From Aureimonas frigidaquae (GTDB lineage: Bacteria > Pseudomonadota > Alphaproteobacteria > Rhizobiales > Rhizobiaceae), in the NCBI RefSeq assembly GCF_001463905.1, contig NZ_BBWR01000002.1, positions 62,001-126,000 on the forward strand: DNA of 64,000 nucleotides, given 5' to 3'. The position numbers and the translations under genes were made by a program. Within the stretch, counting starts at the first letter, position 1. Every line of letters begins with the position of its first letter. This document shows positions 1,507 to 20,191 of the stretch, piece after piece. Below the pieces are notes generated by a model, which saw nothing but the letters and a program-made list of their open reading frames with translations, made no database searches and was not told where the DNA came from.

Positions 1507-1546
1507 TGGAAGGGTGGCCGAGTGGTTTAAGGCAGCGGTCTTGAAA
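1507..1546 (+). repeat. attL: 40-bp direct repeat, 5' half of tRNA-Ser
   Basis: This 40-bp segment matches 18229-18268 exactly. It comprises the acceptor 5' strand, D-arm and anticodon 5' stem and loop of tRNA-Ser(UGA). Identity stops after the last base of the anticodon loop (GAAA then TT here, GAAA then AC at 18269). It is the left junction of the integrated element and not a working tRNA gene because the 3' half is missing. Confidence 0.93.
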
Positions 1547-1652
1547 TTCGGTTGCGGGCGTGTCGCTCTATACCTTCGGATGACCGCATAGCCCGATTTG
1601 CAGGGCCTTACACGCCAGTGCGTCCAGCTCTGTATGATGCTGTATCGTGCGC

Positions 1653-1683
1653 TGCTACCGAGTTGGGTAGCAAAATGGTAGCA
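1653..1683. promoter_or_regulatory. candidate integrase arm-type sites, left
   Basis: GGTAGCA occurs at 1666-1672 and 1677-1683, start to start 11 bp apart, with an inverted copy (TGCTACC) at 1653-1659. The same heptamer occurs twice, again 11 bp apart, beside the right att repeat. The matched spacing at both ends suggests binding sites for the N-terminal arm domain of the tyrosine integrase. Confidence 0.6.
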
Positions 1684-1813
1684 CGATGTTCTCTCCACGT
1701 TCTCCTTGGTCCGAGCGTCTGCGTTCGTCTCGACAGCTGGACGCATACGGACATGTTGATTGACGAACCAATCTCTACGCTGGCATTCTTGTCTCAAACG
1801 GGAGCGCCAAACT

Positions 1814-2341
1814 ATGCCCAATATCCTTCGCAAACCATTGATTAAGCCGCTTCGTGAGATCCAGATTGGCGAGCTGTTTAAAATGCCGTTGCGTAACAGC
1901 TGGGCCCTATGCCTTTTGCTGGACGAAGCGGGCCCACGCCGACTTTTAGGGATCATATCTAGCCCGGAGGCCGGTCATCCCTTTTTCTTACGAGCTGAAA
2001 ACGATATGATCGCCTGCGTCTCTTATGGCTCGGAGTGGGTGATCGATCCTGAAGCCGGGGAAGAGAGCTTCGTTCACCCGCACTTCTTCGAGGATGAGAT
2101 CGGTACTATCCGGATAAGTGCCGACGACGCTTGGATGCGATTTGATCCGCCCCTTGGGGTCAATGATTTTGATATGGGGAACTTCAGCCTTCTTGGGCAT
2201 GGAGAGTTTGATAGAAACACACAGGCAGTACCTTATCGCCAATGGTCGATCTGGCAGTCTGACGAAGAACGGAACTCTCGGCACGGTCAGCCGCTCGTAC
2301 GGATAGTAGGTCGTAGCGCCAGACCGGACGTCCAACCCTAG
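1814..2341 (+). CDS. hypothetical accessory protein at the element's left end
   Basis: 175-residue acidic soluble protein with no signal peptide or membrane segment. The start at 1814 is chosen because GGGAG lies at 1800-1804. An in-frame upstream ATG at 1760 would add 18 residues. No family was recognised. It is transcribed against the structural genes and lies between the attL end and the tape-measure gene. Genes in this position in phages and satellites are often cargo expressed from the integrated state, such as defence or exclusion functions; that role is inference only. Confidence 0.6.
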   Translation: MPNILRKPLIKPLREIQIGELFKMPLRNSWALCLLLDEAGPRRLLGIISSPEAGHPFFLRAENDMIACVSYGSEWVIDPEAGEESFVHPHFFEDEIGTIRISADDAWMRFDPPLGVNDFDMGNFSLLGHGEFDRNTQAVPYRQWSIWQSDEERNSRHGQPLVRIVGRSARPDVQP

Positions 2342-2348
2342 CAAGGGT

Positions 2349-2373
2349 CAATCGCGTCAAGTTGAGGCGATTG
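2349..2373. terminator. hairpin between convergent genes
   Basis: Perfect inverted repeat CAATCGC / GCGATTG with an 11-bp loop, between the stop of the accessory gene and the convergent stop of the tape-measure gene. There is no T-run, so it is at best a weak bidirectional terminator. Confidence 0.35.
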
Positions 2374-2416
2374 AATGCAGCTAGGAACGGTCGAAGGCCA
2401 ATTGTCTACAGGCATG

Positions 2417-5068
2417 TCAGCGGCTCGCTAGTCTGGGACGCGCCCCGAAGCCTTGTCGGAGGGCATTGTTCGTTTCAGTGCCGCGCGTGGAGAGCTTCTG
2501 AGCGACGGCCTTATCAAGAATGACCGACATGCTTCCGTCCGGCTGACGCTCCGTACGAGCATCCGCCTGCACACCAGTATTGTTCACGACGTTCAGGTTG
2601 ATCTCCGGCGCGCCACCTGTTCGGACGACTGTAAGGCTAGGAGCCGACAGCGATGGCATAGCAACCGCACCACCGCCAGCGTAGCCTCTCCTGCCAAGCC
2701 GCATGCCTTCAACAGCGGCTACCCCGCCCGCCCTGGCAACATCGTCCTGCGACCAGACCACCTCTCCTTTGTGCACGATGCCGGCAGGCTGCCGAACGCC
2801 ACCGGGACCTGTGTAGCCACCTGAAGAAAACAAGCCGCCGACACCTTTTGAGATGGCCGATGAAGCTAGGGGTGATCGACCGCCACCACCAAGGCCGCCG
2901 AACAGGCTTTGAAGCAGGCCATCGAAGGCCATATCCAGAAGCTTGTCGGCAATCCGGCCAAGAACATTCTCGAAGGCCTCGGCAGCCGACTTGCCTGCCA
3001 GAAGGTCCTGAGCAAAGCCCTTGAACGCGCCCTCCGCGAGGTCTGACAATATTGCCTGCGTTTCAGCTAGGCGCTGGCTGGCGACTTCCGCATCAGCCAT
3101 GCCCTGCGCGAGGAGGGAAAGTTGCTCTCGCTGCTCGTCAGACAGCTCTATCCCGGCTTGCTGAGCCTGATTGAGCAAATCCTGCTCGTAGCGCTGCGCA
3201 GCGGCCTGCTCTGCGGTCAAGGTGCGTTGCTGCGCCTCTGTCTGAAGCTGGACGATGTATTCCGCGCCTGTGGCGAGGATCTGCCGATACGACTGATCTT
3301 GCTCTAGCGCAGCCTGCGTCACTTCACGACGACGCTCCAACTCGGCAGTAAGGCCTTCGGTCAATCCTTCACGCTCTGCGCCGGGGATTGAGCGGAAGCC
3401 TAGCACCCGATCGCGGTCGTAAGTCTGCGTGTTGACCCCGTTGGACTGGTTCCCGCCGAGAACTCGAACGTTGCCCTTTTCATCATAGCCTTCGAAGAAG
3501 CCGACATGACCCTGCGCAGCGTTGTTGCCCCTGGACAGAACCACAATATCGCCCCGGCGGGGGTCATTCGTGGCCTCGCCGTAGTTCATGAACGATCGCG
3601 CCGCGAGCGATCCCGTGCCGGGCAGGCCATTGGCCGCGAGGGCGGCGTTTACAAATGCCGCGCACCAGGCGGTCATGCGTGGATCGATGTTGACGTTTGC
3701 CTGCTTGAAGAAGCTGGAAAGAATGTTGGCATCTCGCCCTTCCGTGGCGCCAGTAAACCCACGAGCGGTCAGATACGGGGCAGAGGCCAAGCGCTCGCGC
3801 TTCTTCTTACCGGCCTCGCCTTCGACCTCGTAATCGTCGACCGACACCGCGTCGGCCGGAACTACGATCTTGCCGAGACGGACCTCGGCCTGTGGGATAC
3901 CGCCGGGGCGAACCCTGCCGCCGCGATCCGATAAGCTGCCACCAAACCTGGCATTCATCGTGTCGGACGTGTCTTGTTCCTGCCGCTCGCGGCGCATCTG
4001 GGCGCTTTCGATATGAAGTATCGAATTCGGGGTCGTCAGCCAGTCCGGCAGCTTGCGGATGAGGCTGTCCACGACGCCGCCACTATCGTTGATCTCGGAG
4101 ATCCGCAGAGCCCAGTCCTTCGCCGAGATGGATGCGTTATTGAAGGCGGTGACGATCCCCTCCAGGGCGCCCGTGATGCCTTCGAGCGTCTTGACCGCCT
4201 GGGCGACATCGATGCCGTTCAGGGTGTCGACTACCATGTCGACGACGGCTGACATAGCCCGCCCGGCTTCGGTGCTTTCGTTGAACCGGGTGGCGAGGTC
4301 GGTGAAGGCGTTATTGAGACGCGTCATCGATTGGCCGATCGTCGACGAACTGCCCTCAAGCTGCTTCGCCATGACCGGGGCGCCGACGTTGACCGCGTCA
4401 AAGAACGCTCGCGAGGACAGACGGCCATCGAGCATCAGCTTGCGCAACTGGGCGACCGATCCACCCGCTTCCTTAATGCCGATTGCGGCAGCCTGTGCGA
4501 TGGTCGGCGCGCCTTCCAGTATTGAGTTGAACTCTTCCGCCCGCACCACACCGCCGCCAAGTGCCTGCGAAAGCTGGAGCAACGCGCCGCTGGCTTCCTC
4601 GGCGCTCGTGCCGCCGACGCGCAGGAGCGTTGCAACGCTGTCCGTGAAGGTCATGAGCTGGCCGGACGAAACGCCCAACTCCTTTTGCGAGCGGGCAACA
4701 CGGCTATAGAGGGTGACGAGGGTTTCGAGCGGTGCGGCGTTGCGCTGCGCGGCGGCGTACAACTGCCCGTACACTTGCGTGAGCGCCTTGCCCTCCAGGC
4801 CGACAACCTTCAGGGCATTCTCAACCCGCGTCGCGCTGTCGATGAACTGGCCCGCAGTCCGGATTGTGAACGCGCCGGCAAGGCCGGCGGCAGCACCGCG
4901 CGCCATGTTCACAAAACGCTGGTTGACGTTGCGGGCCATGGTCCCCGCACGCTTTTCAATTGCACCGAGTTCTCGATCGGCCGTGTTGCGGCCTTTGCGC
5001 ATCTCGCGTTCAAGCTGGTTAATGCGGGCTTCAACGTTGATGAGCAGACGTTCGGCTTCAACGGCCAT
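2417..5068 (-). CDS. phage tape-measure protein with cell-wall hydrolase domain
   Basis: 883 residues. Residues about 1-60 are a coiled-coil start (ARINQLEREMRKGRNTADREL). Residues about 75-280 match the tape-measure N-terminal domain (RVENALKVVGLEG, then RAEEFNSILEGAP and STIGQSMTRLNNAF). Residues about 440-560 form a CHAP/NlpC-like TIGR02594-type domain with catalytic Cys in MTAWCAAF (about 466) and His in AQGHVGFF (about 519). A long helical stretch and a Gly/Ser-rich C-terminus follow. Tape-measure proteins set tail length in long-tailed phages and can help DNA cross the cell wall. It is the last gene of the structural run and the only tail gene found, which is odd for a satellite. Confidence 0.9.
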   Translation of the reverse strand: MAVEAERLLINVEARINQLEREMRKGRNTADRELGAIEKRAGTMARNVNQRFVNMARGAAAGLAGAFTIRTAGQFIDSATRVENALKVVGLEGKALTQVYGQLYAAAQRNAAPLETLVTLYSRVARSQKELGVSSGQLMTFTDSVATLLRVGGTSAEEASGALLQLSQALGGGVVRAEEFNSILEGAPTIAQAAAIGIKEAGGSVAQLRKLMLDGRLSSRAFFDAVNVGAPVMAKQLEGSSSTIGQSMTRLNNAFTDLATRFNESTEAGRAMSAVVDMVVDTLNGIDVAQAVKTLEGITGALEGIVTAFNNASISAKDWALRISEINDSGGVVDSLIRKLPDWLTTPNSILHIESAQMRRERQEQDTSDTMNARFGGSLSDRGGRVRPGGIPQAEVRLGKIVVPADAVSVDDYEVEGEAGKKKRERLASAPYLTARGFTGATEGRDANILSSFFKQANVNIDPRMTAWCAAFVNAALAANGLPGTGSLAARSFMNYGEATNDPRRGDIVVLSRGNNAAQGHVGFFEGYDEKGNVRVLGGNQSNGVNTQTYDRDRVLGFRSIPGAEREGLTEGLTAELERRREVTQAALEQDQSYRQILATGAEYIVQLQTEAQQRTLTAEQAAAQRYEQDLLNQAQQAGIELSDEQREQLSLLAQGMADAEVASQRLAETQAILSDLAEGAFKGFAQDLLAGKSAAEAFENVLGRIADKLLDMAFDGLLQSLFGGLGGGGRSPLASSAISKGVGGLFSSGGYTGPGGVRQPAGIVHKGEVVWSQDDVARAGGVAAVEGMRLGRRGYAGGGAVAMPSLSAPSLTVVRTGGAPEINLNVVNNTGVQADARTERQPDGSMSVILDKAVAQKLSTRGTETNNALRQGFGARPRLASR

Positions 5069-5312
5069 TGTGTTCGTCCTCCTTCGAACTACAGACCGGT
5101 ACGGCCGCTTTCAGGCATGCAACTGTAAACTCGCGCAAATCCTCGACGCGGCCCATGGCCACCGCCGCGGCTACTAATTCCCTGATGCAGAGCCGTGGAT
5201 CGCAATCGTAAGTTCGCATAGCCGTTACTGTTCTTTCGACGATCCGGTAGGGAACGTCAGGCTTGTACAGGCGCTCAACCATGAGCGCAGAAATGTCTAT
5301 CGCGTTGCTCAT
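5058..5312 (-). CDS. small phage protein upstream of tape measure
   Basis: 84-residue protein starting MSNAIDIS. The start at 5312 is chosen because it overlaps the stop of the upstream zinc-cluster gene (ATGA). The longer frame to 5372 would intrude deep into that gene. Its 3' end overlaps the tape-measure start by 11 bp, so the three genes are translationally coupled. It is mostly helical with no known domain. Its position just before the tape measure is where tail chaperones usually lie, but no slippery sequence or similarity supports that. Confidence 0.65.
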   Translation of the reverse strand: MSNAIDISALMVERLYKPDVPYRIVERTVTAMRTYDCDPRLCIRELVAAAVAMGRVEDLREFTVACLKAAVPVCSSKEDEHNGR

Positions 5313-6145
5313 TCGGCTGCCTCGCATTGAAAAATGGACTTCCCGCCACTTCGTATGGCGCTGAAAAAGCACGACTTCGAGCAGAACGCGCTCTTGCTTT
5401 TGCGGTCTTTGCGAGGTCGGGGGACGAAGAGACCGCCGCAGTAGCCGCAGGCCTGCTCGTTCTTCCGCGCATGTTCAGCCCTCCGCCAGTCGTACCCGCA
5501 TCGCGGTGTGCAAAACTCGACACGGGGCAGTCCCTGGAATGGCGTCTGACAGTGCTTGCATGGACGCACCTCCATCCGTGCCTTGTAGCGTGCAGCCTGC
5601 GCTCGGATTTTCTCCGGGTTGGCTCGCGACCACGCCTTGACGAGCGCGTTCATTTTGTCGCGGTTGTCGCGCTGCCATTCACGTTTGCGCGTGATGCTCG
5701 CGCATTCCTCGCAGCAATGAGTACCGCGGTGGAACTCTTCGAGGATGCCGCCGCATCCGGCGCAATGGCGATGACGCCACGATGTCGGATCAGGCTCGCG
5801 GTATTCCGGCTGCCCTTGGAGCCACGAAGGCCTTTTGGCACCAATTTTCCCCAGTGCGATACGAACTACTTCAAGGGCGTTGGCATCAGCGTCAGCCCAT
5901 GTGAAGCCCCGGGAGATCAGCAATACCCGTACCGCATACCGGCATGTGCCCTCGAACTGGAACATGGTCGGCTGACCGATGCGAAGGATTGGAATGATCG
6001 TCTCGACCATTGCCGCGGTCTTCCTCTCGCCAAGTGCGCGCTTTTGCTCGGCAGCTCGGCGAATGGCCTTCGCTTGCTCTTTCTCCTCCAGCTTGATTTG
6101 GAAGTTACGGAGGTACCTCATGGTTTCGGGAGTCAACTGAAGCAT
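5309..6145 (-). CDS. triple zinc-cluster phage protein
   Basis: 278 residues. The N-terminal half is helical and highly charged. The C-terminal half holds three spaced Cys pairs that look like zinc-binding knuckles: CAGCGG with CCEEC, CKHC with CTPRC, and CGYCGG with CSKSC. The segment between the first two sets is Arg/Lys-rich (KAWSRANPEKIRAQAARYKARM), as in nucleic-acid-binding proteins. No HNH signature is visible. It is coupled to TerL upstream (TGATG) and to the 84-residue gene downstream (ATGA). Lying between terminase and tape measure, it may act in packaging or be a degenerate homing endonuclease. The family is not recognised. Confidence 0.6.
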   Translation of the reverse strand: MLQLTPETMRYLRNFQIKLEEKEQAKAIRRAAEQKRALGERKTAAMVETIIPILRIGQPTMFQFEGTCRYAVRVLLISRGFTWADADANALEVVRIALGKIGAKRPSWLQGQPEYREPDPTSWRHRHCAGCGGILEEFHRGTHCCEECASITRKREWQRDNRDKMNALVKAWSRANPEKIRAQAARYKARMEVRPCKHCQTPFQGLPRVEFCTPRCGYDWRRAEHARKNEQACGYCGGLFVPRPRKDRKSKSAFCSKSCFFSAIRSGGKSIFQCEAAE

Positions 6146-7743
6146 CAGAACACCAGCAGCCCTTCTGGGCGCGCATCAGCATCAGCGTAAACGCTTCTGC
6201 CACTGTCACCCTCTGTGGCGCGAGCTACTGCCATCGCGGCAGCAACTGCGCCGTCAATCCGATCCTTGCTCTTGCCCTTGTGGAAGCTCTTGTTGCCGGC
6301 CTTGTCGATCTCGACCGCGACGTTGTCGAAGCACCACCGCAGGACCGGGTTGCCGTCATGCCGGAAGCGCCGACCAATAATGACGCGCTCCAGCTCAGCA
6401 ATTGCCGGCGCCATAGTCCGCCACCCCTGGCGCATCTCGACGACCGGATAGCCATCCTCAGCGAGCGGTACGCTGATCTGTCGGGCATAGGCTGGATCGA
6501 AGGCTATTTCCCGAACCTCGAACCGGACGCACAATTCGCGGATGAATTGCTCGACAGCGCGATAGTCGATGACGTTGCCGGGCGTTGGAATGATGCGCCC
6601 CTCTTCTGCCCAGCGGGGATATGGAACACCATCACGATCGGCGCGGGCACGAAGGTTTTCCTCCGGCACAAAGAACCAGGCCATGACGCGGTGGCTGTCG
6701 TCGCCATCTGGAAAGCTCGCCACGATAGCAGTGAGATCCGTGGTCAATGAGGCGTCGACTGCGATCCAACACGGCTCATTCTCAAGATCGGCTTCGTCGA
6801 TCGCCTCCGCGCCCTCGTCGTAGATCGCCATCTCGACGAATGGATCGGCAGAGTGATCGAGCCAGACATTCAAGTGCAGCTGGCGGAAAGCTTCGCGATC
6901 TGCAGGCTTGTTCTCAGCCTCACGGGCAAGTTGGCGGAGGCCTTCGATATCCGGGAAGCCGTTCGCAAGTCCGGGATTAACGCGGTGCCACACTTCCTCG
7001 TCGCGCCAATTGGCGTCAGCAGGCGTCTCGAATAGGATCGGCAGTGTCGCGGGGTCGTCGATCTCCCCGCGCGCTACCTTGCGGGCATAGTCGATCGTGT
7101 CGAATGCGATGTTCTCCTGGCCGCGTCCTGCCGTGGTAATGACGACAAGGAGCGAGCCCGGCACTTTCACGAGGCCAGTTCGGATGACATCCCACAGCTC
7201 GCGTTTCTTCCAGGCGTGCAACTCGTCAACCAGTGCGAAGGTCGGGGTGCGCCCGTGCTGTGTTCCAGCATCCGCCGATAGGGCTTCAAGCACCGCTCCC
7301 GACTTCGGATGCGAGAGCCGGTTTTTGTAGCTCTGGAAGCCCATCTTCGAGGCAATGCGTTTATCGGCCCGGACGATGCCGACCGCTTCCTCGTAAGCAA
7401 TGCGAGCCTGCTTACGATCAGCGGCGGCAATGTTCGCCTGACCACCATTCAGACGCTCTGGACCGATAGTGTGGAGGAGACCAAGTGCCGCCCCCAGCGA
7501 GGTCTTCCGGTTTCCACGGGGCAAAAGGATGATGACGTTGCGTACGATCCGCCGACCGTTCGAATGGCATGGCCCGTAGATGCGCCTGACAATCCGCTCC
7601 TGCCATTCCGGCAGCTCGAATGCTCGCCCAGCCAGGCGGCTTTTTGGGTGACGCAAAATACGAAGAAAATCGACGGCACGCTGGCCATAACCGAAGGGGT
7701 CGTCGATCTCTGAGCCGTCAAAGATCCAGGTCGGCAAGCTCAT
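6145..7743 (-). CDS. terL: terminase large subunit
   Basis: 532-residue packaging motor of the Terminase_1 (HK97-like) family. The ATPase half has a Walker A-like loop at LPRGNRKTS (residues 74-82) and Walker B with adjacent glutamate at LVDEL (Asp173, Glu174). The nuclease half has the acidic motifs AVDASLTTDL, IAFDPAYA and DRIDGAVAAA near the C-terminus. Length is normal for the family and all motifs are intact, so the element probably keeps its own packaging. Its start overlaps TerS by 26 bp. Confidence 0.95.
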   Translation of the reverse strand: MSLPTWIFDGSEIDDPFGYGQRAVDFLRILRHPKSRLAGRAFELPEWQERIVRRIYGPCHSNGRRIVRNVIILLPRGNRKTSLGAALGLLHTIGPERLNGGQANIAAADRKQARIAYEEAVGIVRADKRIASKMGFQSYKNRLSHPKSGAVLEALSADAGTQHGRTPTFALVDELHAWKKRELWDVIRTGLVKVPGSLLVVITTAGRGQENIAFDTIDYARKVARGEIDDPATLPILFETPADANWRDEEVWHRVNPGLANGFPDIEGLRQLAREAENKPADREAFRQLHLNVWLDHSADPFVEMAIYDEGAEAIDEADLENEPCWIAVDASLTTDLTAIVASFPDGDDSHRVMAWFFVPEENLRARADRDGVPYPRWAEEGRIIPTPGNVIDYRAVEQFIRELCVRFEVREIAFDPAYARQISVPLAEDGYPVVEMRQGWRTMAPAIAELERVIIGRRFRHDGNPVLRWCFDNVAVEIDKAGNKSFHKGKSKDRIDGAVAAAMAVARATEGDSGRSVYADADARPEGLLVF

Positions 7744-8092
7744 CGTCTTCTCCCTCCTCTCGCATAGAGGGACGGGAGCGGCTGACTGGCGTCAGGCCCA
7801 GTTCAGATGCAAGCTGGCGGGCAGTCTGCATGGCCGCGTTCTGCATGCGGAACAGCGCTGGCGTGATTTCCTCGGCTTGGATAAGCCGCTCGATCTCACG
7901 AACACGACCGGTGCAGATGCAATAGTTCTCGACGCTTCCGAGATCAGCCGTCGTCAGGATGCGGCGCTTAACGAGAGCCGGCATGACCCGCTTCCATTCT
8001 TTTTTGGCGTCTGCAGTCAGGTGAGAAGGCGCTGCTGGCGTCCGATCAATGGCCGTATTGTCGATGACGAGACGGGGTTTGGTGCCTCTCAT
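7718..8092 (-). CDS. terS: terminase small subunit, P27 family
   Basis: 124-residue protein typical of P27-type small terminases, which recognise the packaging start site and recruit TerL. The conserved core APSHLTADAKKEWKRVMPAL is followed by helical segments and an acidic C-terminal tail (MREEGEDDELADL). The start overlaps the HNH stop as ATGA, and TerL follows with a 26-bp overlap. Satellites usually carry their own TerS to redirect packaging. Confidence 0.92.
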   Translation of the reverse strand: MRGTKPRLVIDNTAIDRTPAAPSHLTADAKKEWKRVMPALVKRRILTTADLGSVENYCICTGRVREIERLIQAEEITPALFRMQNAAMQTARQLASELGLTPVSRSRPSMREEGEDDELADLDL

Positions 8093-8550
8093 TTGCTGGC
8101 ACCTCCAGATGAAAAACTGAATTCTTCCCGATCTCGCGCAATTGGGGGAGGGCGGTCCTGCGGCGACTGACGAAAGTCCGCGACCACCCCCGGTCCTGTG
8201 GGGCGTCGTCCGAAGCCACCTTCTTCACGGACTGCTTTTCGACTGTTGCAGCCTCGCGCCATCGGCTGCCAGTTTGATCGCGACCAAAAGAGCGACTGAT
8301 CGCCTTTGTGAGCCTTCACGTGATCGACCACGTCAGCCGCTCGTCCACATCCGCAAGCGCATTGCCTGTTCTCTGGACGGGCGAGGAAAGCCTTGCTCTC
8401 TCGTTCCCACTTGCTGTTGTAACCACGGGCACGTGCGGAGGGCCTGCGAGCATCGGCTTCGGCAGCATTGCGGGATGCACAGGCTGGGCAGCCTCGACCG
8501 CGGTACGGTGGATGACCAGCGGGGCAGAGCTTGGGAGCGGACCAAGGCAT
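8089..8550 (-). CDS. HNH endonuclease
   Basis: 153 residues. The N-terminus has a CPAGH...CPAC zinc pair. The central HNH module has CACGCG, the DH pair in VVDHVKAHKG, the Asn in RSNWQP and the final His-equivalent region GCNSRKAV. Phage HNH proteins beside TerS/TerL cooperate with the terminase in cutting DNA for packaging, and HNH-TerS-TerL is a standard trio in HK97-type packaging and in capsid-forming PICIs. It is coupled to TerS by ATGA. Confidence 0.9.
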   Translation of the reverse strand: MPWSAPKLCPAGHPPYRGRGCPACASRNAAEADARRPSARARGYNSKWERESKAFLARPENRQCACGCGRAADVVDHVKAHKGDQSLFWSRSNWQPMARGCNSRKAVREEGGFGRRPTGPGVVADFRQSPQDRPPPIARDREEFSFSSGGASK

Positions 8551-8552
8551 AG

Positions 8553-8867: not shown

Positions 8868-8869
8868 GG

Positions 8870-9427: not shown

Positions 9428-9482
9428 TATGCGTGTCCTTCGCTACGGCAGGTAGCCGGCGCCCGGAGGCGCCAGCGCTTTG

Positions 9483-11307: not shown

Positions 11308-12503
11308 CAGGCGTTTCCCTCGACGGGTGGTGTGCCGGCGCCGTTCGGATTGATGTGCGGGTTATCGTATGTGTCGCCGCCGAACCGAGGCGGCAGGCCA
11401 AGCCAGTCGCGACCCTCGTTCGGGTTCAGGACACGCGAGGCGATCAGTCCGTTGATGGCAGTGGCGCGGGCGGTCAGGTCGACGGCGGTGAAGTCGTCGC
11501 GGTCGAAGCGGATGCGGTGGCTTCCACGTTCCTCCGCGGTGAAAAGCGCCCGGCGCATAGCCCCCTCCAAGGGGCGAAGCCAGAACTCCAGTCCCGCAAG
11601 CCATTCCTTCTGCGCCGACTCCATGTTCGCCCAAGTCTGGCGCTCGAAATCGTAGAGCGCGCTGGGCGGCACTCGGAAGTGGCGGCCGATCTCCAGAATG
11701 GCAAACTGCCACGTAGCAATGGTTTCACTGTCCACGCTATTGAAGGCCAGAGGGGTCCAGTCGCCATTCTCTTCGAGAACTGCCGTTCGACCGGAGTTAC
11801 CGGCACCACCATGAGCGGCTTCCCAGCTCGCCTTGATGCGTGGCGCTGTATCGGCTCCGAGCTTGCCAGGAAACTTCAGGATGCCGGAAGGACGGGCACC
11901 GCGGGCGAACAGACTGCCGACATGGCGTTCCAGCTTGGCGGCTACGCCGATAGCGCCTGATGCGAGGGACAGGGGGCAACGTGTGAAGGGGCCGCGAAGG
12001 TGGATCACCTCGCCAAGGGACACTTCCCGGTTGCCGATTTTGTAGGTTGGCTCCTGCCGGCCATCGCTCGAATAGTCGACCGTGAATGACCCTTGCGCGT
12101 AGTGGACGATCTCGACCGGAGAGCCGTCACGCTTGTTCACCCAGGCAAGCCCACCCTCGTTCTGTGTCAGCGCGGAAGTAACGAGGTCGCGGATCAGGGA
12201 GTAGGTGTCGCTCCAGTCGTTCGGAGCATCGGCCAGGAGCTGCGCAACAGGATGATCGTCTGCCGACACCCAGCCGTCGCTTCCACGTCGCTCGACCATC
12301 AGGCCCAGGGAGGCGATCGAGCCGGAGATGAGGGATATTGCGGAAGCGACGGCGGGAACTTCGAGGGCTTGTCGGCCGGTCACGGCATAATCCGTAACGG
12401 CACCGCCACCAAACAACTCGAAAAGCCAATCCGCCGGCACGGAAGTGCCAGAGGGGGCTTTCGTTTCTACTGGTTCAGGGTGATAGAAGAGTGGCCAGCG
12501 CAT
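11307..12503 (-). CDS. HK97-family portal protein
   Basis: 398-residue portal of the HK97 family: ALEVPAVASAISLISGSIASL near the start, the wing/stem region LNSVDSETIATWQFAILEIGRHFRVPP and the C-terminal FRVPPSALYDFERQTWANME and GRDWLGLPPR signatures. It forms the dodecameric DNA gate. The ATG at 12503 is used. A TTG at 12512 is possible and neither has a strong ribosome binding site. It heads the structural run, and the divergent accessory gene at 12586 separates it from the early genes. Confidence 0.93.
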   Translation of the reverse strand: MRWPLFYHPEPVETKAPSGTSVPADWLFELFGGGAVTDYAVTGRQALEVPAVASAISLISGSIASLGLMVERRGSDGWVSADDHPVAQLLADAPNDWSDTYSLIRDLVTSALTQNEGGLAWVNKRDGSPVEIVHYAQGSFTVDYSSDGRQEPTYKIGNREVSLGEVIHLRGPFTRCPLSLASGAIGVAAKLERHVGSLFARGARPSGILKFPGKLGADTAPRIKASWEAAHGGAGNSGRTAVLEENGDWTPLAFNSVDSETIATWQFAILEIGRHFRVPPSALYDFERQTWANMESAQKEWLAGLEFWLRPLEGAMRRALFTAEERGSHRIRFDRDDFTAVDLTARATAINGLIASRVLNPNEGRDWLGLPPRFGGDTYDNPHINPNGAGTPPVEGNA

Positions 12504-12585
12504 GACAACCAATATGGAGTCATCATTCCCGCGCGTATCGTGGTTTAACCAAGGATTTCATGGGTTTAAGGGGTGATTGGCGCAG

Positions 12586-13116
12586 ATGCAATATAGTGAC
12601 GTAGTCTTCGAGTTAGTGAAGCTGCTCTTGCAGGCCGGTTTTGCCTTATTCGTCGCGTGGCGCGCGGTGCAGTGGGCCCTTGAAAGATACAAAGCTGAGA
12701 AGCACTGGGAACGACAATTGAGCGCCTATTCGGACATCGTATCTGCGCTTGGCACCTTGATGAACGTTCTGGCTGAGTGGGAAGATCAGGAAATGACCGG
12801 GCGAGGGCCAAGAGGTACCACAGACAGTGACCTTAGGAATTCGTACTGGTCTGCGCGCCGAAAGCTGGAGGAGGTACAGTCAGTCGCCATGCTGGTGCTG
12901 CCTAACGAGATGGCCTCGAAGATGAAGGAACTTGTCCAAGCTCTTGCTCGTGTAGACGACGGCAATCATCCTACGGCCTTCGATATGAGGGATGCGGAGT
13001 ATCGGTTGATTGAAGCAGCCCGTTCCGACTTTGTGGCTCACGGTCGGGTAGATCTTGGCATGGATCGTCACCTTCGCCCCCGTAAGAATTCCAATAGGTC
13101 CGCCTCGAAGGCATAG
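12586..13116 (+). CDS. single-pass membrane protein inserted in the element
   Basis: 176 residues. An N-terminal hydrophobic segment (about 12-28, ELVKLLLQAGFALFVAW) is followed by a basic, helical cytoplasmic part (ERYKAEKHWERQLSAY) and a helical domain. AAGGGG lies 11 bases before the ATG at 12586. A TTG at 12577 is the alternative start. It runs against all neighbours and overlaps the 3' end of the HTH gene by 49 bp. The layout, a membrane protein with its own transcription unit between early and structural modules, is typical of exclusion or defence cargo, but no family is recognised. Confidence 0.6.
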   Translation: MQYSDVVFELVKLLLQAGFALFVAWRAVQWALERYKAEKHWERQLSAYSDIVSALGTLMNVLAEWEDQEMTGRGPRGTTDSDLRNSYWSARRKLEEVQSVAMLVLPNEMASKMKELVQALARVDDGNHPTAFDMRDAEYRLIEAARSDFVAHGRVDLGMDRHLRPRKNSNRSASKA

Positions 13117-13265
13117 TATCGACCGCCCATCTCCTTCACAGGCGTTCCTGGCTGCTTAGCCAAAGTGTCCCGGACGAAGTCAGGCCCGACGCCGATCCGT
13201 TTTGCTATACCGCCCAAGGTCCAGATAATCCGATCCTGTTTCCGGTTGGTTTCAACGGTGCTCAT
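13068..13265 (-). CDS. small helix-turn-helix DNA-binding protein
   Basis: 65 residues beginning MSTVETNRKQDR. An AlpA-type HTH is visible (TLGGIAKRIGVGPDFVRDTLAK), then a wing-like GRYYAFEADLLEFLRG. The start at 13265 is chosen for the AAAGGAC site in front of it. A longer frame to 13379 lacks a site. It is the last gene of the early run and may control the structural genes or assist packaging. Confidence 0.75.
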   Translation of the reverse strand: MSTVETNRKQDRIIWTLGGIAKRIGVGPDFVRDTLAKQPGTPVKEMGGRYYAFEADLLEFLRGRR

Positions 13266-13533
13266 GTGCCTGTCCTTTCTCGCAGAACATGTCTTCCCCG
13301 CCAGCATGGAGGCGGGAATGATGCCGCCGACATAGCCATCGGACGGTGAGCGGCTTGGAATAGTCGTCATGGTGCGCATCGACGATCCGGCTGCCGCATA
13401 CCTCGCATGGACCCTTGACCAGCTTGCCCTGCGTCAGAGCCTTCTGGACTGCGACGTGGGACAGATAGCGGTCGGGGTTCGCCCGCCGCCAGTTGGCCTG
13501 CCTCGTGTCGGTCTTGAGCTTCAGTTCCGTCAT
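13252..13533 (-). CDS. small zinc-finger/HNH-like phage protein
   Basis: 93 residues from the ATG at 13533, with a strong GGAGGGG site and an ATGA overlap with the gene before it. A zinc module is clear: CEVCGS, then DAHHDDYSKPLTVRWLCRRHHSRLH. This His-Cys arrangement is common in small phage proteins related to HNH/recombination endonuclease VII folds. The basic N-terminus (RQANWRRANPDRY) fits nucleic-acid binding. Substrate and role are unknown. Confidence 0.8.
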   Translation of the reverse strand: MTELKLKTDTRQANWRRANPDRYLSHVAVQKALTQGKLVKGPCEVCGSRIVDAHHDDYSKPLTVRWLCRRHHSRLHAGGEDMFCEKGQAHEHR

Positions 13534-13808
13534 GCTGCCCCTCCAGTCCCAGCCATGGAGATCCGGGTGACTTCCGCCTGCACGCAACAGGCAAAAGCGT
13601 TAACCTCAACTTCGATACGGTTTTCCGGCACGCCGGCCTTTTCCATCTGCCGCCATAGGCCTTCGACAGCCCGCTTCCAGTAATGGGCGGCTTCCCGATC
13701 CGTCCGACTGTTGACGATGCGATCCGCCGTGCGCCGTATATGGCCGACCCGCATTCGAGCCGGGAACGGGATGACGATGACGGTTGGCTGGAATAGATCA
13801 GGCTGCAT
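13530..13808 (-). CDS. DUF6074-like phage protein
   Basis: 92 residues. The core VIVIPFPARMRVGHIRRTADRI followed by a helical region (YWKRAVEGLWRQMEKAGVPE) and a C-terminal ACCVQAEVTRISM resembles the DUF6074 family found in rhizobial phages. The ATG at 13808 lies 9 bases from GGGAGG; the ATG at 13817 touches that site and is unlikely. It is coupled to the next gene by ATGA and overlaps the replication-type gene by 11 bp. Confidence 0.7.
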   Translation of the reverse strand: MQPDLFQPTVIVIPFPARMRVGHIRRTADRIVNSRTDREAAHYWKRAVEGLWRQMEKAGVPENRIEVEVNAFACCVQAEVTRISMAGTGGAA

Positions 13809-14394
13809 CAGAAACATCCTCCCGACCGCCCACCCCAGATGGTAAATTACTTATGCACCGATTATCGGGACAATTGAGGCTCGATTTCGGGTCAAAACCG
13901 TCCCGATTTTCATGACACCTGTCCCGATTTTCGGTGCACCCTGTCCCGATTTCCGTGACGGTCTGTCCCGATTTTCGGTGCGGGGTTTTTTTCTTGGTCG
14001 GGGGTGGCGTCCAGCCACGATAGTCTCGCGTCGGCTGCTCGCCCATGTATCCCAGCTCGGTCAAACGCCAGAACGTCGCCATGGCGTTTCCATCAATTCC
14101 GAGATGGGCGGCTTGGGTGATGCGCAGGAAGCCATGTTCCTGCAACTCCCGAAACCATACCTCGGTAGATGATCTGGACGCGCCCATATCAGCCGCGGCG
14201 CGGCGGACGCCGAGATAGATGCGACCGTTGTTCCTACCGTTGTAGTAGCTCTTGACCACGATGTAGAGGCACCTCGCCCCGTAGGACAGCGCCTTCCATG
14301 CCGGCTCCTGCATCGTCGGTTTCAGCACCGAAACGAAGGGCTGATTAGGGGCCGCGTCCCAGGCTTCCTTGACTGCCTTGCTTTTCCTGCTCAT
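13798..14394 (-). CDS. replication-type winged-helix protein carrying internal iteron-like repeats
   Basis: 198 residues. The N-terminal 130 residues form a winged helix (FVSVLKPTMQEPAWKALSYG, RRAAADMGASRSSTEVWFRELQEHGFL, then TFWRLTELGYMG), a fold shared by phage replication initiators and regulators. The C-terminal third is low-complexity and encoded by the repeated DNA at 13859-13975. An ATGA overlap joins it to the gene before. A role as origin-binding initiator comparable to lambda O is inferred from fold, position and internal repeats. A transcriptional regulator is the alternative. Confidence 0.7.
   Translation of the reverse strand: MSRKSKAVKEAWDAAPNQPFVSVLKPTMQEPAWKALSYGARCLYIVVKSYYNGRNNGRIYLGVRRAAADMGASRSSTEVWFRELQEHGFLRITQAAHLGIDGNAMATFWRLTELGYMGEQPTRDYRGWTPPPTKKKTPHRKSGQTVTEIGTGCTENRDRCHENRDGFDPKSSLNCPDNRCISNLPSGVGGREDVSDAA
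13859..13975. repeat. iteron-like repeats, candidate replication origin
   Basis: GTCCCGATT occurs at 13900, 13921, 13943 and 13965, so the copies are 21, 22 and 22 bp apart (two helical turns), and an inverted GTCCCGAT lies at 13864-13871. The wider unit is about 18 bp (CTGTCCCGATTTTCGGTG with variations). On the coding strand the same core is read in three different frames (KSGQ, EIGT, ENRD, ENRD). Conservation therefore follows the DNA and not the protein. Confidence 0.7.
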
Positions 14395-14807
14395 CGGGCC
14401 TTTGCCCCTCTATTCTGTTGCCCCTCCAGTAGGATGAGCTTGGGCGCAATGTTCCTGCGGCGATATTCTGCCAGCCGGCCCTCTAACTCGTCCGGATCGA
14501 TCCCTTGAAACTGTTCCTCACGGCGATGATTGACCTTCACATCAATACGCCACTCGTCGGGGCGTAGGTCGCCAGTGCGGACCCAGTAGTATTCGACGGT
14601 GGTGATGACCGGGGCGAGGCGGACGCGCCGCCCCTCCTTTGCGTTGGCGATCCTGGCGGCGTTGTCGGCACCGATCAGGCGCCTAGCAATGCGCTGGTCA
14701 TCCTCGCTCAAAACCGAGTGGCCAATTCGGCGACTTGATACGGCGAACAGCTTGGCCCGCATGCGGCGTTCCAGCTCGGACAGGTCTTCATCGTCGAGAT
14801 TGGTCAA
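14391..14807 (-). CDS. hypothetical early phage protein
   Basis: 138 residues from a TTG start at 14807, preceded by GGGAGG and overlapping the upstream stop as TTGA. An ATGA overlap joins it to the replication-type gene. The N-terminus is charged (DDEDLSELERRMRAKLFA). The middle has a beta-like stretch (RRVRLAPVITTVEYYWVR) and the C-terminus is helical. No family was recognised. Confidence 0.65.
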   Translation of the reverse strand: MTNLDDEDLSELERRMRAKLFAVSSRRIGHSVLSEDDQRIARRLIGADNAARIANAKEGRRVRLAPVITTVEYYWVRTGDLRPDEWRIDVKVNHRREEQFQGIDPDELEGRLAEYRRRNIAPKLILLEGQQNRGAKAR

Positions 14808-15093: not shown

Positions 15094-15293
15094 GCGCGGC
15101 CTCCCTTGTCGTAGAAGGCTTCCTCGTAGGACTTCGCGATGCGGTCCATGATCGAATGGAGCTTGCCGGTCAGAAGGCAGACAGCGTTGTGCCGGTCTTT
15201 GTCCAGCGTATCCTGACAGAGGTAGTCGTTGATGATTAGGGCGAGGCACTGCCCGTCATAGATATCCTGCTCGCGCTCCTGGAAGCTTCTCAT
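15090..15293 (-). CDS. hypothetical early phage protein
   Basis: 67 residues, all-helical (MRSFQEREQDIYDGQCLALIINDYL...SIMDRIAKSYEEAFYDKGG), with ATGA overlaps on both sides. No family is recognised. The composition and coupling make it a likely real early gene. Confidence 0.6.
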   Translation of the reverse strand: MRSFQEREQDIYDGQCLALIINDYLCQDTLDKDRHNAVCLLTGKLHSIMDRIAKSYEEAFYDKGGRA

Positions 15294-15841
15294 GGCCGGC
15301 CTCCCATACGGGTCGCGACCGACAAGCCGAAGCTGAAGGGTTCGGAGAACGCGGGCGCAAAGTTTGCGCTTGCGTTACCTTTCTTCGATCGAGCTTTAGA
15401 CCGGGCTTCTGCCGCAACGTTTTCACAGACTGCCTGCTGATGCCCTCGGTCATCCTTGGACTGAAAGTGCTGGTAGACCGCCAGCTGCTCGTGCACCTCG
15501 TGCAAGGCTTCTTCATCGCCTATGCCATCTTCGGCAGGGTCCAGTTCCCGGTCGGTGTCGAAGGTCTGGCCCATGCGCTGGCCTTCATTCGTCCAGCCAA
15601 TTTCCGGCTCGTCGTCGGAGCTGTCGCCCTCGCGCTCATCGTAGCCATCGTTCTCGATGTCAGCGCCGTCTTCCAGGTCACAATCGCCGTCGAGGTCGTC
15701 CAGCAGCTGGATAAGCGCCTCGATATGGGCCTCGACCTCGGCACGGCGGCGCCGGCCAGCCGCGGTTTCCCGACGCTTGCGCCCAGGTTTCCGTTTCGTT
15801 CCTGTTGCAACTTTATCCACAGTAGTGCTATTTACGGGCAT
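15290..15841 (-). CDS. acidic early phage protein
   Basis: 183 residues (ATG at 15841; an ATG at 15847 is equally possible). It has a basic N-terminus (KRKPGRKRRETAAGRRRRAE), then a helix (HIEALIQLLDDLDGD), then a strongly acidic middle (about 60-115) and a basic Ala/Ser tail. A charge-segregated protein of this type could bind DNA or mimic it. Similar proteins of unknown role occur in rhizobial phages. It is coupled to the next gene by ATGA. Confidence 0.65.
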   Translation of the reverse strand: MPVNSTTVDKVATGTKRKPGRKRRETAAGRRRRAEVEAHIEALIQLLDDLDGDCDLEDGADIENDGYDEREGDSSDDEPEIGWTNEGQRMGQTFDTDRELDPAEDGIGDEEALHEVHEQLAVYQHFQSKDDRGHQQAVCENVAAEARSKARSKKGNASANFAPAFSEPFSFGLSVATRMGGRP

Positions 15842-15935
15842 GTTCATACCTCGACTTTGACTGGGTTGGGTTTGAAATCGGGTCCGGAGAGGTTGCCGCC
15901 TCTACCGGGCCTTTCTTTTTCCGGAAGACGTTCAC
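15828..15935 (-). CDS. 35-residue early peptide
   Basis: GTG start at 15935, seven bases after a perfect AGGAGG. The sequence begins NVFRKKKGPVEAA after the start and ends YEHARK. The stop lies inside the start of the acidic gene, as with the other coupled early genes. The longer frame back to 16019 uses a TTG without a site. The strong ribosome binding site is the main support. Confidence 0.45.
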   Translation of the reverse strand: MNVFRKKKGPVEAATSPDPISNPTQSKSRYEHARK

Positions 15936-16053
15936 AGGATCGTCCTCCTGTCTTGCTGACGGCGGATGATTGATCCTGCCTGCCGCTGATCTTTCCTGAG
16001 CCTTCGTCGAAACCGCCAAACCCAGATCCGATAGCGGATGTGGGTCAGCCAGA

Positions 16054-16260
16054 TCATGCGGCGATACCGAAGGCAGTTCTCAGGCCAAGCTGCTGTGCGA
16101 CTTGAGAGACTGGAACGACCATGCGCCGCCCGATTTTGATCGTCGGGATATCGCCGCGACGTGCTGCCTCGTAGGCACCGTTTCGTTCCAGACCGTAAAA
16201 AACTTTCCCTGCGTCCGGCACCGAAATGGTCGCCCGCTCCAACGCTTCCTGTATGGTCAT
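16054..16260 (-). CDS. AlpA/excisionase-like DNA-binding protein
   Basis: 68 residues. A MerR-type HTH with wing is clear: ISVPDAGKVF, RNGAYEAARRGDIPTIKIGRRMVVPV. This is the small excisionase/AlpA class that directs excision or activates early genes in satellites and prophages. AAAGGGAC lies before the ATG. It is the first leftward gene and divergent from the RHH regulator across a 100-bp region with two palindromes. Confidence 0.85.
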   Translation of the reverse strand: MTIQEALERATISVPDAGKVFYGLERNGAYEAARRGDIPTIKIGRRMVVPVSQVAQQLGLRTAFGIAA

Positions 16261-16360
16261 CTTCTGTCCCTTTGTGTTAGTAACGTGCTGACGTTACCAC
16301 CTTTTGGGACGATAGCAAACGTTTCGTGCTAACTTTATCACGAAACCTGGGGGCGATCTG
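16261..16360. promoter_or_regulatory. divergent control region with two operator candidates
   Basis: Two perfect inverted repeats lie between the divergent AlpA-like and RHH genes: GTAACGT/ACGTTAC at 16280-16286 and 16291-16297 (4-bp spacer), and GTTTCGTG/CACGAAAC at 16321-16328 and 16339-16346 (10-bp spacer). One faces each gene. They are likely sites for the RHH regulator or the HTH protein and form the element's decision switch. Confidence 0.65.
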
Positions 16361-17002
16361 ATGGCGCGACCGAAGCTGAGCGATGGGGATACCCAACGGC
16401 TACAACTGAAGATTGGTGACGACGAGCTGCGGGAGATTGAGGACTGGCGTTTTGCTAATCGCATTCAATCGCGCAGCGAGGCAGTTCGGCGCCTCTGCAA
16501 GATCGGCTTGCTCGTCGATGAGGTGATCGATGTGGCGGTGGATGCGTCGGAGAAATTGACGGACGCTACATACGACAACTACCGGTATGCTGCCGATTGG
16601 GAGGAGTGGCTGCAGGATAATGGTGACGACGACGGCGCGATTGATGCCTCGGTCACCAACCTCGCTTCATATGCGGAGACCATAAGCGATCTGTCCAAGA
16701 TCGTCCGCAACATGATTGTCGGCATCCACAACGGGATTGCGCCCCTAGCTGACGCTAAGGACCTGAACGAAGCAACAGCGCGGTCGAAAAAGAACCTCGA
16801 AGATGTCGCCGCTACTCTTGAGAATATTTACAAAAGAATGGATGAGCGTGAGGACAATTACCTGTTCTCACTAGTGTTCCAGCGGATGAGTGTGGGGCAG
16901 CGAGCCGCTTATCAAAAGCTCAGCGAACCTGAACAGGATGCTTTCTGGGCAACTGAGAAGCAGAAGTTGCGCGACGAAATGGGCGGAGAAAATCAGAAAT
17001 GA
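16361..17002 (+). CDS. ribbon-helix-helix regulator with helical C-domain
   Basis: 213 residues. The N-terminal 45 residues fit an Arc-like RHH domain (TQRLQLKIGDDELREIEDW, then SEAVRRLCKIGLL). The rest is acidic and helical and may mediate oligomerisation. GGGGGCG precedes the ATG. The stop overlaps the integrase start as ATGA, so regulator and integrase are cotranscribed. It is the best candidate for the master repressor of the element, since no CI-like repressor is present. Confidence 0.75.
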   Translation: MARPKLSDGDTQRLQLKIGDDELREIEDWRFANRIQSRSEAVRRLCKIGLLVDEVIDVAVDASEKLTDATYDNYRYAADWEEWLQDNGDDDGAIDASVTNLASYAETISDLSKIVRNMIVGIHNGIAPLADAKDLNEATARSKKNLEDVAATLENIYKRMDEREDNYLFSLVFQRMSVGQRAAYQKLSEPEQDAFWATEKQKLRDEMGGENQK

Positions 17003-18150
17003 AAGGCTCCATCCGCGAACGCTCTCCGGGTCATTGGGCAATCATCCTCGACGTGCCAGATCCAGAAAATGGTAGGCGCAGACGCAAATGGCATAGCTTC
17101 CGAGGAACAAAGCGCGAGGCGCAGTCGGAATGTGCGCGGCTTATCACGCAGCTGAAGCACGGCGGCTACACGGAGCCGACGAAGACCACGCTTGCCCAAT
17201 TTCTCGACCGGTGGATCGAGCATGAGGCGTCCAGCGTGTCGCCCAAAACGCTGGAGCGCTACGCCGAGATCGCCCGCAAGAACATCGTGCCGCTGATCGG
17301 ATCGACCACCCTGGCCAAGCTCAAGACAGGCGAAATCGACGCCGCGTGGACCAAAGCCCTCGCAACGGGTCGCAGGGACGGGAAGGGGGGATTGGCGCCG
17401 CGCACCGTTCACCATATGCGGCGAGTGCTGATCAAAGCTCTCAACCAGGCGGTCGTGTGGGAGATGATCGCAAAGAACCCGGCCGCCTTGTCCAAGCCGC
17501 CGAAGGTCGAGCGGAAGGCGATGAGCGCGTACGGCGCGGCAACGACAGCGCAGCTCTTGGACGCGGTCCGGGGGACGCGCATCTACGTGCCAGTGTTGCT
17601 GGCGGTCATGTGCGGGCTGCGGCGGGGCGAGATCGTGGCGATGCGCTGGGCGAACGTCGACCTGGAGGGCCGGCGGCTTGCCGTGGTCGAAACTGCGGAG
17701 CAGACAAAGGGAGAAGTCAGGCGGAAGGAAACCAAGTCGGGGCGTGGCCGCGTGATCGATCTGTCCGCTTCAACCGTCGAGGAACTGCGCAAGCACCGCG
17801 TCGCACAGGCGGAGGAACAGCTGCAGCTCGGCATTCGTCCGGACGACAATTCGTTCGTGGTGGCGCAGATCGACGGGAAGCCGCTCCAACCGAACTCGCT
17901 GACCCATGAATGGACGCGGATTTTGGCAAAGACCGCCTTGCCCCGTATCCGCTTCCATGACCTGCGCCATAGCCACGCCACGCAGATGCTGGCCGCCGGC
18001 ATCCATCCCAAGGTCGCGCAGGAGAGGTTGGGCCACAGCACGATTGCGATCACCCTGGACATCTACAGCCACGTCATGCCGGGCATGGGAGCAGACGCTG
18101 CAGAGCAGGTTGACGCTGCGATCCGCAAAGCGGTAAAGACCGCCTCGTAA
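16999..18150 (+). CDS. int: tyrosine recombinase/integrase
   Basis: 383 residues with three domains: an N-terminal arm-binding AP2-like part (about 1-50), a SAM-like core-binding domain (about 60-170) and a catalytic domain. Catalytic residues seen are Arg208 in GLRRGE, His320 and Arg323 in HDLRHSH, and Tyr356 in DIYSHV. The gene ends 79 bp before the right att repeat, the usual position for a tRNA-targeting integrase. Coupled translation with the RHH regulator suggests integrase is made whenever that regulator is. Confidence 0.96.
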   Translation: MKGSIRERSPGHWAIILDVPDPENGRRRRKWHSFRGTKREAQSECARLITQLKHGGYTEPTKTTLAQFLDRWIEHEASSVSPKTLERYAEIARKNIVPLIGSTTLAKLKTGEIDAAWTKALATGRRDGKGGLAPRTVHHMRRVLIKALNQAVVWEMIAKNPAALSKPPKVERKAMSAYGAATTAQLLDAVRGTRIYVPVLLAVMCGLRRGEIVAMRWANVDLEGRRLAVVETAEQTKGEVRRKETKSGRGRVIDLSASTVEELRKHRVAQAEEQLQLGIRPDDNSFVVAQIDGKPLQPNSLTHEWTRILAKTALPRIRFHDLRHSHATQMLAAGIHPKVAQERLGHSTIAITLDIYSHVMPGMGADAAEQVDAAIRKAVKTAS

Positions 18151-18157
18151 GGCGTTC

Positions 18158-18175
18158 GGTAGCAATTCGGTAGCA
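18158..18175. promoter_or_regulatory. candidate integrase arm-type sites, right
   Basis: GGTAGCA at 18158-18164 and 18169-18175, again 11 bp apart, 54 bp before the att core. The heptamer and spacing are the same as at 1666/1677 on the left. Confidence 0.6.
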
Positions 18176-18228
18176 ACAGCCCAAAATAGATTGGCTTGGA
18201 AGCCGAAAAAGCTAACGATTACAAGCGC

Positions 18229-18268
18229 TGGAAGGGTGGCCGAGTGGTTTAAGGCAGCGGTCTTGAAA
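18229..18268 (+). repeat. attR: 40-bp direct repeat
   Basis: Identical to 1507-1546. It covers one base before the tRNA-Ser gene and its 5' half to the end of the anticodon loop. Because the repeat is the 5' half, the element supplied the 5' half and the upstream DNA of the working tRNA gene. Confidence 0.93.
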
Positions 18269-20190: not shown

Positions 20191-20191
20191 A

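Follow-up and report, generated by a model that had tools for sequence, protein, structure and literature searches.

Among the described systems closest to the locus studied here are the capsid-forming phage-inducible chromosomal islands (cf-PICIs), which are described as relying on a helper phage for tails only (PMC10690885), average 14 kb and occur mainly in Enterobacteriaceae and in several Firmicutes and Pasteurella groups (PMC10803314), and have capsids that fall into three clades (PMC11389934). We use sequence comparison to study an element at 1507-18268 (16,762 bp, counting both copies of its attachment (att) repeat) of a 64,000-nt stretch of the Aureimonas frigidaquae genome (contig NZ_BBWR01000002.1, positions 62,001 to 126,000). 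We refer to this whole stretch as the window, and its numbering is used for all coordinates of the element. Judged from its gene content and its relatives, the element is probably an integrated phage satellite which would make its own heads, take tails and lysis from a helper and function like a cf-PICI, although it falls short of strict membership in that class.

The reason for this last restriction is a tail gene that was not named in the initial annotation of this DNA, which had described a cf-PICI-like content with no tail tube, sheath, baseplate, fibre or lysis gene. The largest gene of the element (2417..5068, minus strand) encodes a tape-measure protein (TMP) of 883 amino acids (aa), matched by PF20155 (2e-51), phrog_17300 (1e-93) and TIGR02675, with a peptidase region near residues 458-559 recognised by CHAP (7e-8) and TIGR02594. 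A cf-PICI encodes no tail genes and depends on its helper for tails, and because this element encodes a tape measure we do not file it as one. The open reading frame (ORF) of the TMP is intact, with a coding score per codon of 0.134 (compared with 0.114 for the large terminase subunit and 0.112 for the portal), and at 39-41% identity to its relatives the protein is too divergent for a safe ratio of nonsynonymous to synonymous change (dN/dS). In BLASTP searches of the loci then in our set, the CHAP segment of the window is found in no other satellite TMP, the matches being the window itself, its copy L033 and L186, a locus resembling gene transfer agents (GTAs).

The head and packaging genes all lie on the minus strand. 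They encode a portal protein (11307..12512; PF04860, 3e-68), a prohead protease (10801..11307; PF04586, 2e-18; TIGR01543, 4e-18), an HK97-fold major capsid protein (9659..10804; PF05065, 4e-80; TIGR01554, 1e-106), a 58-aa protein after the capsid gene (9483..9659; cluster 19, profile c19, in 8 loci including the window, with no PHROG match), the head-tail connector Ad1 (8870..9427; TIGR02215, 5e-30; PF05135, 3e-10; phrog_442, 5e-23), the head closure (head completion) protein Hc1 (8553..8882; PF05521, 2e-23), an HNH endonuclease (8089..8550; phrog_2323, 3e-20), and the small (TerS; 7718..8092; PF05119, 9e-20) and large (TerL; 6145..7743; PF20441, 1e-33; PF03354, 1e-18) terminase subunits. The capsid, protease, portal, connectors and HNH-TerS-TerL set that make up the content of a cf-PICI are thus all present. 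The initial annotation had read here a complete and intact HK97-type head and packaging set with tightly overlapped genes, and this description stands: every gene that it named is matched by profiles, and the ORFs are open and overlapping. The head genes are under purifying selection, with dN/dS against near relatives of 0.06-0.15 for the protease, 0.11-0.18 for the capsid and 0.17-0.20 for the portal. The only relative of the window connector in IMG/VR is in L033, which is identical in sequence. Beyond TerL follows a 278-aa multi-CxxC protein (5309..6145, minus strand) which alignments with relatives show to be recurrent in this satellite group; such proteins, of ~270-380 aa, lie beside the TMP or the terminase in many elements of the group. 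The relative of this protein in L140 has no match among 50,697 phage records, and a structure model of the window protein (predicted local distance difference test score, pLDDT, 83; predicted template modelling score, pTM, 0.37) has no PDB match at E <= 0.001.

The part of the initial annotation that excluded a tail tube, sheath, baseplate, fibre or lysis gene agrees with both of our searches. Profiles built from relatives for the major tail protein, neck, terminator, two chaperone types and distal tail protein find nothing in any frame of the element at E <= 1e-3, and the TMP is the only match when the tube, neck, tip, fibre and lysis proteins of two siphophages are used as a query panel. Queries for hub, peptidase, megatron, fibre and lysis proteins likewise find no match in 19 satellite sequences (18 delimited elements and the circular contig L053, described below), so that the hub, fibre and lysis genes which close relatives of a tailed prophage would carry at the same locus are not seen in these 19. 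As a positive control, the siphoprophage L229, which has a related TMP, is matched for hub, peptidase, megatron and lysozyme.

Of 297 genomes of the family searched with the capsid, 220 contain a match at E <= 1e-40; the listed matches are mostly near 36-42% identity, and many of the matches are probably GTAs or other phages. The best foreign match is in Mangrovicella endophytica (G042, 79%), and of the 48 loci contributed by IMG/VR, 26 lie on contigs of 16.3-20.9 kb. When ten family genomes are extended by 20 kb on each side of the capsid gene, a direct repeat of 26-52 bp, linked to a tRNA, bounds 15.7-19.2 kb around that gene in nine; the stretch from the tenth (G191) contains no tRNA and was therefore not searched for repeats. 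Tallied over 96 scanned loci (which include copies of the nine extended genomes, L081 being G042, and one locus, L091, without terminase), ten have tRNA-linked repeats bounding 15.0-18.1 kb, among them loci from Rhodopseudomonas (L152), Azospirillum (L177) and Chelativorans (L139, repeat of 18 bp); the number is this low because most loci reach only 10 kb to either side and only tRNA-linked repeats were sought. The elements in the nine extended genomes sit at tRNA-Arg, -Ser, -Lys, -Thr and -Gln, and the hosts of the group include Hyphomicrobiales, Rhodobacterales-type genera (for example Paracoccus and Tropicimonas) and Azospirillum. A single IMG/VR contig of the 48, L053, has a 95-bp terminal repeat and hence forms a 17,197-bp circle; its TMP gene precedes the portal and is encoded on the opposite strand. 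In the delimited relatives the block is an att-bound unit of 15-19 kb and not part of a larger prophage, and one further relative is the 17.2-kb circle; this agrees with the satellite reading of the initial annotation.

The gene order in these satellites is portal, (chaperone), protease, capsid, HNH, (tube), connector, (neck, terminator), head closure, TerS, TerL and tape measure, with variations. TerS-TerL follow the capsid, whereas the terminase precedes the portal in the full phages that we read, including L229 and L233. We clustered the capsids at 95% identity into 125 clusters and typed the 69 in which TerL follows the capsid and the sequence continues for 2.2 kb or more past TerL; the remainder are too short (17, among them L053 and L126) or are of other order or fragments (39). 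By profile, 46 of the 69 typed loci encode TMP, terminator and tube (where 'tube' includes the second-lineage profile c15, to which this role is assigned as a guess), four TMP and terminator, four the TMP alone and 15 none of these. The four with the TMP alone are the window, L093, L124 and L142, the last with unlabelled 129-aa ORFs that may hold a divergent tube protein, and L089, typed as head-only, in fact has a TMP of family phrog_19914. A TMP without a detected tube occurs in G153 as well as in L124 and L093, and also in L053, which is close to L093 and has neck-like and terminator-like proteins. The expectation that the same block would be found at other tRNA sites in close genomes is correct for the sites, and the further expectation that the tail module would always be absent is not, given the 46 loci with a tube. 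Some elements of the group show features of their own: L095 and L128, of the second tube-bearing lineage, encode a GTA-gp10-like chaperone, and in both an integrase gene (profile c20) immediately precedes that of the portal; L117 (the G195 element, 17590-19288) has a HEPN protein beside a DUF262/NsnA-like protein, likely a defence pair; and L155, a satellite without TMP, encodes a type IIG restriction-modification enzyme (4717-7584).

A tree of the capsids separates 71 satellite rows from 20 others (14 GTA-like, four phages and two other) with full support (100, Shimodaira-Hasegawa-like approximate likelihood ratio test, SH-aLRT). This tree omits six long-branch rows (phages L202, L203 and L208, together with L174, L188 and L189), four named phages remaining; with the six kept, the phage and GTA side has 25 rows, the support is 87 and phage L202, with a branch of 5.75, falls at the root as drawn. 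Selection of the rows by similarity to satellite capsids makes this a biased sample, and no reference cf-PICI capsid is among them. In the tree with the six rows the window capsid groups with five tube-bearing rows (support 100). Having a tube or not requires at least 10 changes on the 71-versus-20 tree, and a TMP without tube, seen in six rows of which L142 is doubtful, requires six changes on the larger tree, five of them forced by starred branches.

Quantitative comparison of individual genes points to two sources. Identity of the window element to tube-bearing members is 94% for the protease, 79-85% for the capsid and 70-71% for the portal, and its closest relative for connector (46%), Hc1 (57%) and HNH (64%) is L126, a head-only element of 15.0 kb at tRNA-Arg with a 20-bp repeat and neither TMP nor tube. 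Because portal, protease and capsid lie near the tube-bearing members and connector, closure and HNH near L126, the neck module seems to have been exchanged, and the tube genes to have gone with it; the element is apparently a recombinant that lost its tube genes and kept the TMP. Its origin would then be a recombination between a tube-bearing satellite, the source of portal-protease-capsid, terminase and TMP, and a head-only satellite, the source of connector-closure-HNH. Tube, terminator, neck and chaperone genes, absent from the window element, are present in the relatives nearest to it in capsid sequence, so these proximal tail genes were lost, apparently by exchange of the neck module and not by decay. 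Also lost, it seems, were the chaperone that separates portal from protease and the small genes beyond the TMP.

This history bears on the alternative that the element is a decayed prophage minus its tail genes, which the comparisons disfavour and which we hold to be very unlikely. It would account for the missing tube, neck, terminator and chaperone genes of the closest relatives, but the delimited relatives are themselves of 15-19 kb with no match to hub or lysis proteins, the ORFs of the window are open and overlapping with head genes under purifying selection, and its neck genes have been replaced, not deleted. Nor is there a close phage among the records searched: the 564 phage records with a capsid match all stay below 60% identity (the 30 listed reach no more than 36%), and the 2265 phage TerL matches are likewise all below 60% (at most 38% among the 15 listed). 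The initial annotation had preferred a satellite of Hyphomicrobiales over a tail-deleted large prophage, and the tRNA-integrated relatives of 15-19 kb with the same gene order, and with capsids apart from those of the phages and GTA-like loci compared, support the satellite; what has to be revised is that proximal tail genes were indeed lost.

We now consider what the TMP may do in an element with no detected tube gene. The role that we prefer, with a confidence just short of even, is that the satellite TMP would work in helper-built tails as a ruler and DNA-delivery protein. A siphovirus helper would induce the element, which would excise and replicate from its iterons, and the ~16.7-kb element DNA would be packaged into its own small heads, with tube, tip and lysis supplied by the helper. 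The HK97 capsid has T=7 for about 40 kb, and by this geometry 17 kb of DNA would suit a T=4 shell. The least certain step is that the satellite TMP would be built into tails of helper tube protein and set the tail length; its CHAP domain and C-terminal end would serve DNA delivery.

Two other roles have to be weighed against this one. The TMP of such a satellite may be a functionless leftover of a tube-bearing ancestor, with complete helper tails used as in a cf-PICI. We regard this as possible, if rather doubtful: the window capsid is nested among those of tube-bearing elements and the other tube-assembly genes that we sought are gone from the window, and against this the TMP gene is the longest of the element, intact and with a coding signal like that of the head genes, its CHAP segment is one that BLASTP found in no other satellite TMP among the loci searched, and TMPs without a detected tube recur across capsid lineages. 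A more antagonistic role, in which the TMP is a weapon that poisons helper tail assembly, strikes us as unlikely. The N- and C-terminal parts of the TMP resemble those of Rhizobiales siphophages (Mesorhizobium, Rhizobium, Labrenzia), with 37% identity over 65% of the window protein to the TMP of Mesorhizobium phage vB_MseS-P1 (PP232116) and 39% over 58% to that of Labrenzia phage vB_LagS-V1 (PP058680), so it could mis-incorporate into helper tails, and likely defence genes are present in two satellites of the group; a precedent is offered by the Tai systems of PICIs, which block tails (PMC11364771). However, the tube-bearing relatives retain the TMP alongside tube, terminator and chaperones, an association that looks structural, and blocking the helper's tails would harm the satellite too.

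Returning to the satellite reading as a whole, with TMP-guided use of helper tails, several observations weigh against it. The TMP could be a relic, as set out above. The panel of tail proteins is weak at distance, finding terminator or tube in four of five GTA-like controls and hub or megatron in none of them, and for this reason L229 is the positive control on which we rely. Since tube proteins diverge fast, the absence of a tube gene from the window is a conclusion drawn from profiles and from the small size of the remaining ORFs. Possible tip parts occur in relatives: a PF05939 minor tail protein in G222, a DUF6950 protein in G276, distal-tail proteins in some members, a 302-aa protein after the TMP of G153, and a 101-aa protein of L124 (11757-12062) that matches phrog_12296, 'tail fiber protein'. 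Finally, a helper is not apparent in the host: of the Pfam families used to look for a resident HK97-type siphoprophage in its genome, PF05065, PF20155 and PF03354 each have one match, which is the element itself, and PF13550 has none. The helper would therefore be an incoming phage or one of a type not covered by these four families. Separately, L085, like L124, has a small protein near its capsid (9381-9644), both being ~90-100 aa; that of L085 has no Pfam match, and the two are reminiscent of the GTA head-spike base protein.

Such tip candidates bring up the possibility that the tube-bearing relatives, and the window by descent, are self-sufficient minimal siphophages whose tip and lysis proteins go unrecognised. 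In its favor, most of a proximal tail is encoded by 46 of the 69 typed loci, and some loci add a distal-tail or minor tail protein. We nevertheless judge it highly improbable: the unlabelled ORFs of the delimited elements are mostly small, and ten chosen from the 79 of at least 90 aa gave, in PHROGs, one TMP, one connector and eight without match, with no hub, fibre or lysis family found in Pfam for six of those. It also cannot apply to the window itself if the window has no tube gene.

The boundaries of the element follow from a direct repeat at 1501-1546 and 18223-18268 (46 bp at 96%), with an exact core of 40 bp at 1507..1546 (attL, plus strand, found by repeat search) and 18229..18268 (attR, plus strand, found by repeat and tRNA search). 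The tRNA-Ser(TGA) gene that attR overlaps is intact at 18230-18319, which shows that the repeat covers the 5' half of the tRNA, as far as the anticodon loop; the initial annotation was right in placing a 16.7-kb element with 40-bp att repeats at tRNA-Ser. Because integration takes place at this 5' half, it is the upstream side of the tRNA gene that the element replaces. A tyrosine integrase (16999..18150, plus strand; PF00589, 5e-26) lies next to attR, so the element has both the integrase and the flanking att repeats of a chromosomal island. This integrase is 64-78% identical to those of related elements, four of which (G148, G276, G153 and L152) are also at tRNA-Ser(TGA); the first three, with integrases 64-68% identical to that of the window, again use the 5' half, and G042 a 3' half. 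Sister genomes G220, G297 and G298 each have one copy of the tRNA-Ser 5' half in the regions read. The left flank (window 1-1500) has no match in 20 sister genomes beyond the 46-bp att region, so that we can report single tRNA-Ser copies and no true empty site. In G307 an integrase of the window family adjoins the tRNA-Ser att sequence, and two copies of that sequence lie 58 kb apart (C45, 12407-70825) with the integrase beside one of them; the site may be an insertion hotspot used by other elements. On the right, four sister stretches (L218, L219, L220 and L223) have relatives of the genes at 30.9-38.7 kb of the window in the vicinity of this tRNA-Ser, and the window flank at 18320-30800 therefore seems rearranged or to hold another insertion.

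The remaining genes fit the initial description of an integrase, an AlpA-like helix-turn-helix (HTH) protein, a ribbon-helix-helix regulator and a replication-type gene with iterons, supported by profile matches and by the iterons themselves. The ribbon-helix-helix type repressor is encoded at 16361..17002 on the plus strand (phrog_4738, 8e-9), and the AlpA-like HTH regulator or excisionase at 16054..16260 on the minus strand (PF12728 (HTH_17), 7e-5, below the curated cut-off; homologues in L154 and L152). Also on the minus strand are an acidic 185-aa early protein (15290..15847; partial homologues in L154, L136, L124 and L147), a conserved early protein of 138 aa from its likely start (14391..14807; homologues in L035 and G148), a replication initiator-like protein (13798..14394; phrog_270, 4e-5; PF13730 below cut-off; homologues in related elements), a second, small HNH-type endonuclease (13252..13587; phrog_2340, 4e-20) and a small HTH or excisionase-like protein (13068..13265, start shifted inward to fit homologues in related elements; phrog_66, 6e-4). 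A repeat search finds a putative origin inside the replication gene (13899..13976, plus strand), made of four direct copies of the 13-bp iteron TGTCCCGATTTTC with 0-1 mismatch at 13899, 13920, 13942 and 13964, in steps of 21-22 bp; a fifth copy, in opposite orientation and with 2 mismatches, is at 13860. By chance a mean of 0.012 matches is expected (500 shuffles of the surrounding 900 bases), and the other 45 kb of the window contain no copy with up to 2 mismatches. Next to attL is a 176-aa ORF (1811..2341, plus strand), possibly cargo, with no Pfam, NCBIfam or PADLOC match and no homologue in the loci compared.

How does this element compare with known systems? GTAs package host DNA, and a GTA is a fixed chromosomal cluster without integrase or att; the window element has both, and the GTA-like loci in our set differ further in having no TerL after the capsid and, in several cases, an ORF of more than 1,200 aa downstream. 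The likeness is in the head, where the nearest solved capsid by sequence is that of the Rhodobacter capsulatus GTA (RcGTA; 6tb9/6tba, E 3e-56), accompanied by a weak adaptor match (E 0.005); an E. coli cf-PICI capsid is reported to group structurally with the RcGTA capsid (PMC12846349). With full phages, the element shares the related TMP and the HK97-type head and neck genes of vB_MseS-P1 (40.8 kb) and vB_LagS-V1 (39.3 kb), in which the terminase lies before the portal; after its TMP the former has an annotated distal tail protein, hub, peptidase, megatron, fibres and lysozymes, and the latter has unnamed tail-region genes and a putative endolysin. The Streptomyces satellites MulchRoom and MiniFlayer, as described in PMC10690885, are helper-dependent and have their own capsid, portal, terminase, HNH and head-to-tail adapter, as here, and differ in a scaffolding protein and direct terminal repeats; in the passages seen, MiniFlayer's fibre is the only tail component reported, and the term 'tape measure' is absent from the text.

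With the cf-PICIs the element shares the integrase with att, the own portal, protease, capsid, connectors and HNH-TerS-TerL, and the small genome. The differences are the TMP with its peptidase, a length of ~16.8 kb against an average of 14 kb, an alphaproteobacterial host outside those listed in PMC10803314, and relatives of which 46 of the 69 typed encode tube and terminator. In the literature searched, from which subscription papers are mostly absent, we found no description of a satellite with its own tape measure or tube, nor of this satellite lineage. It may be, although we would put this a little below our preferred role for the TMP, that the alphaproteobacteria hold a large satellite lineage that makes its own heads and most of a tail up to tube and TMP, stealing tip and lysis, and that some members, like the window element, steal the tube again and keep the TMP, which would give them control of tail length and DNA entry on borrowed tails. 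The group adds alphaproteobacterial hosts to those in the passages seen of the cf-PICI papers. Where satellites of the cf-PICI type are described as stealing whole tails, we find a graded series within one capsid lineage, from head only through head with TMP to head with tube and TMP. This makes it testable which parts of the tail a parasite of this kind has to encode itself and which can come from the helper, and whether a TMP of its own frees a satellite from the tail length or the DNA-entry requirements of its helper.

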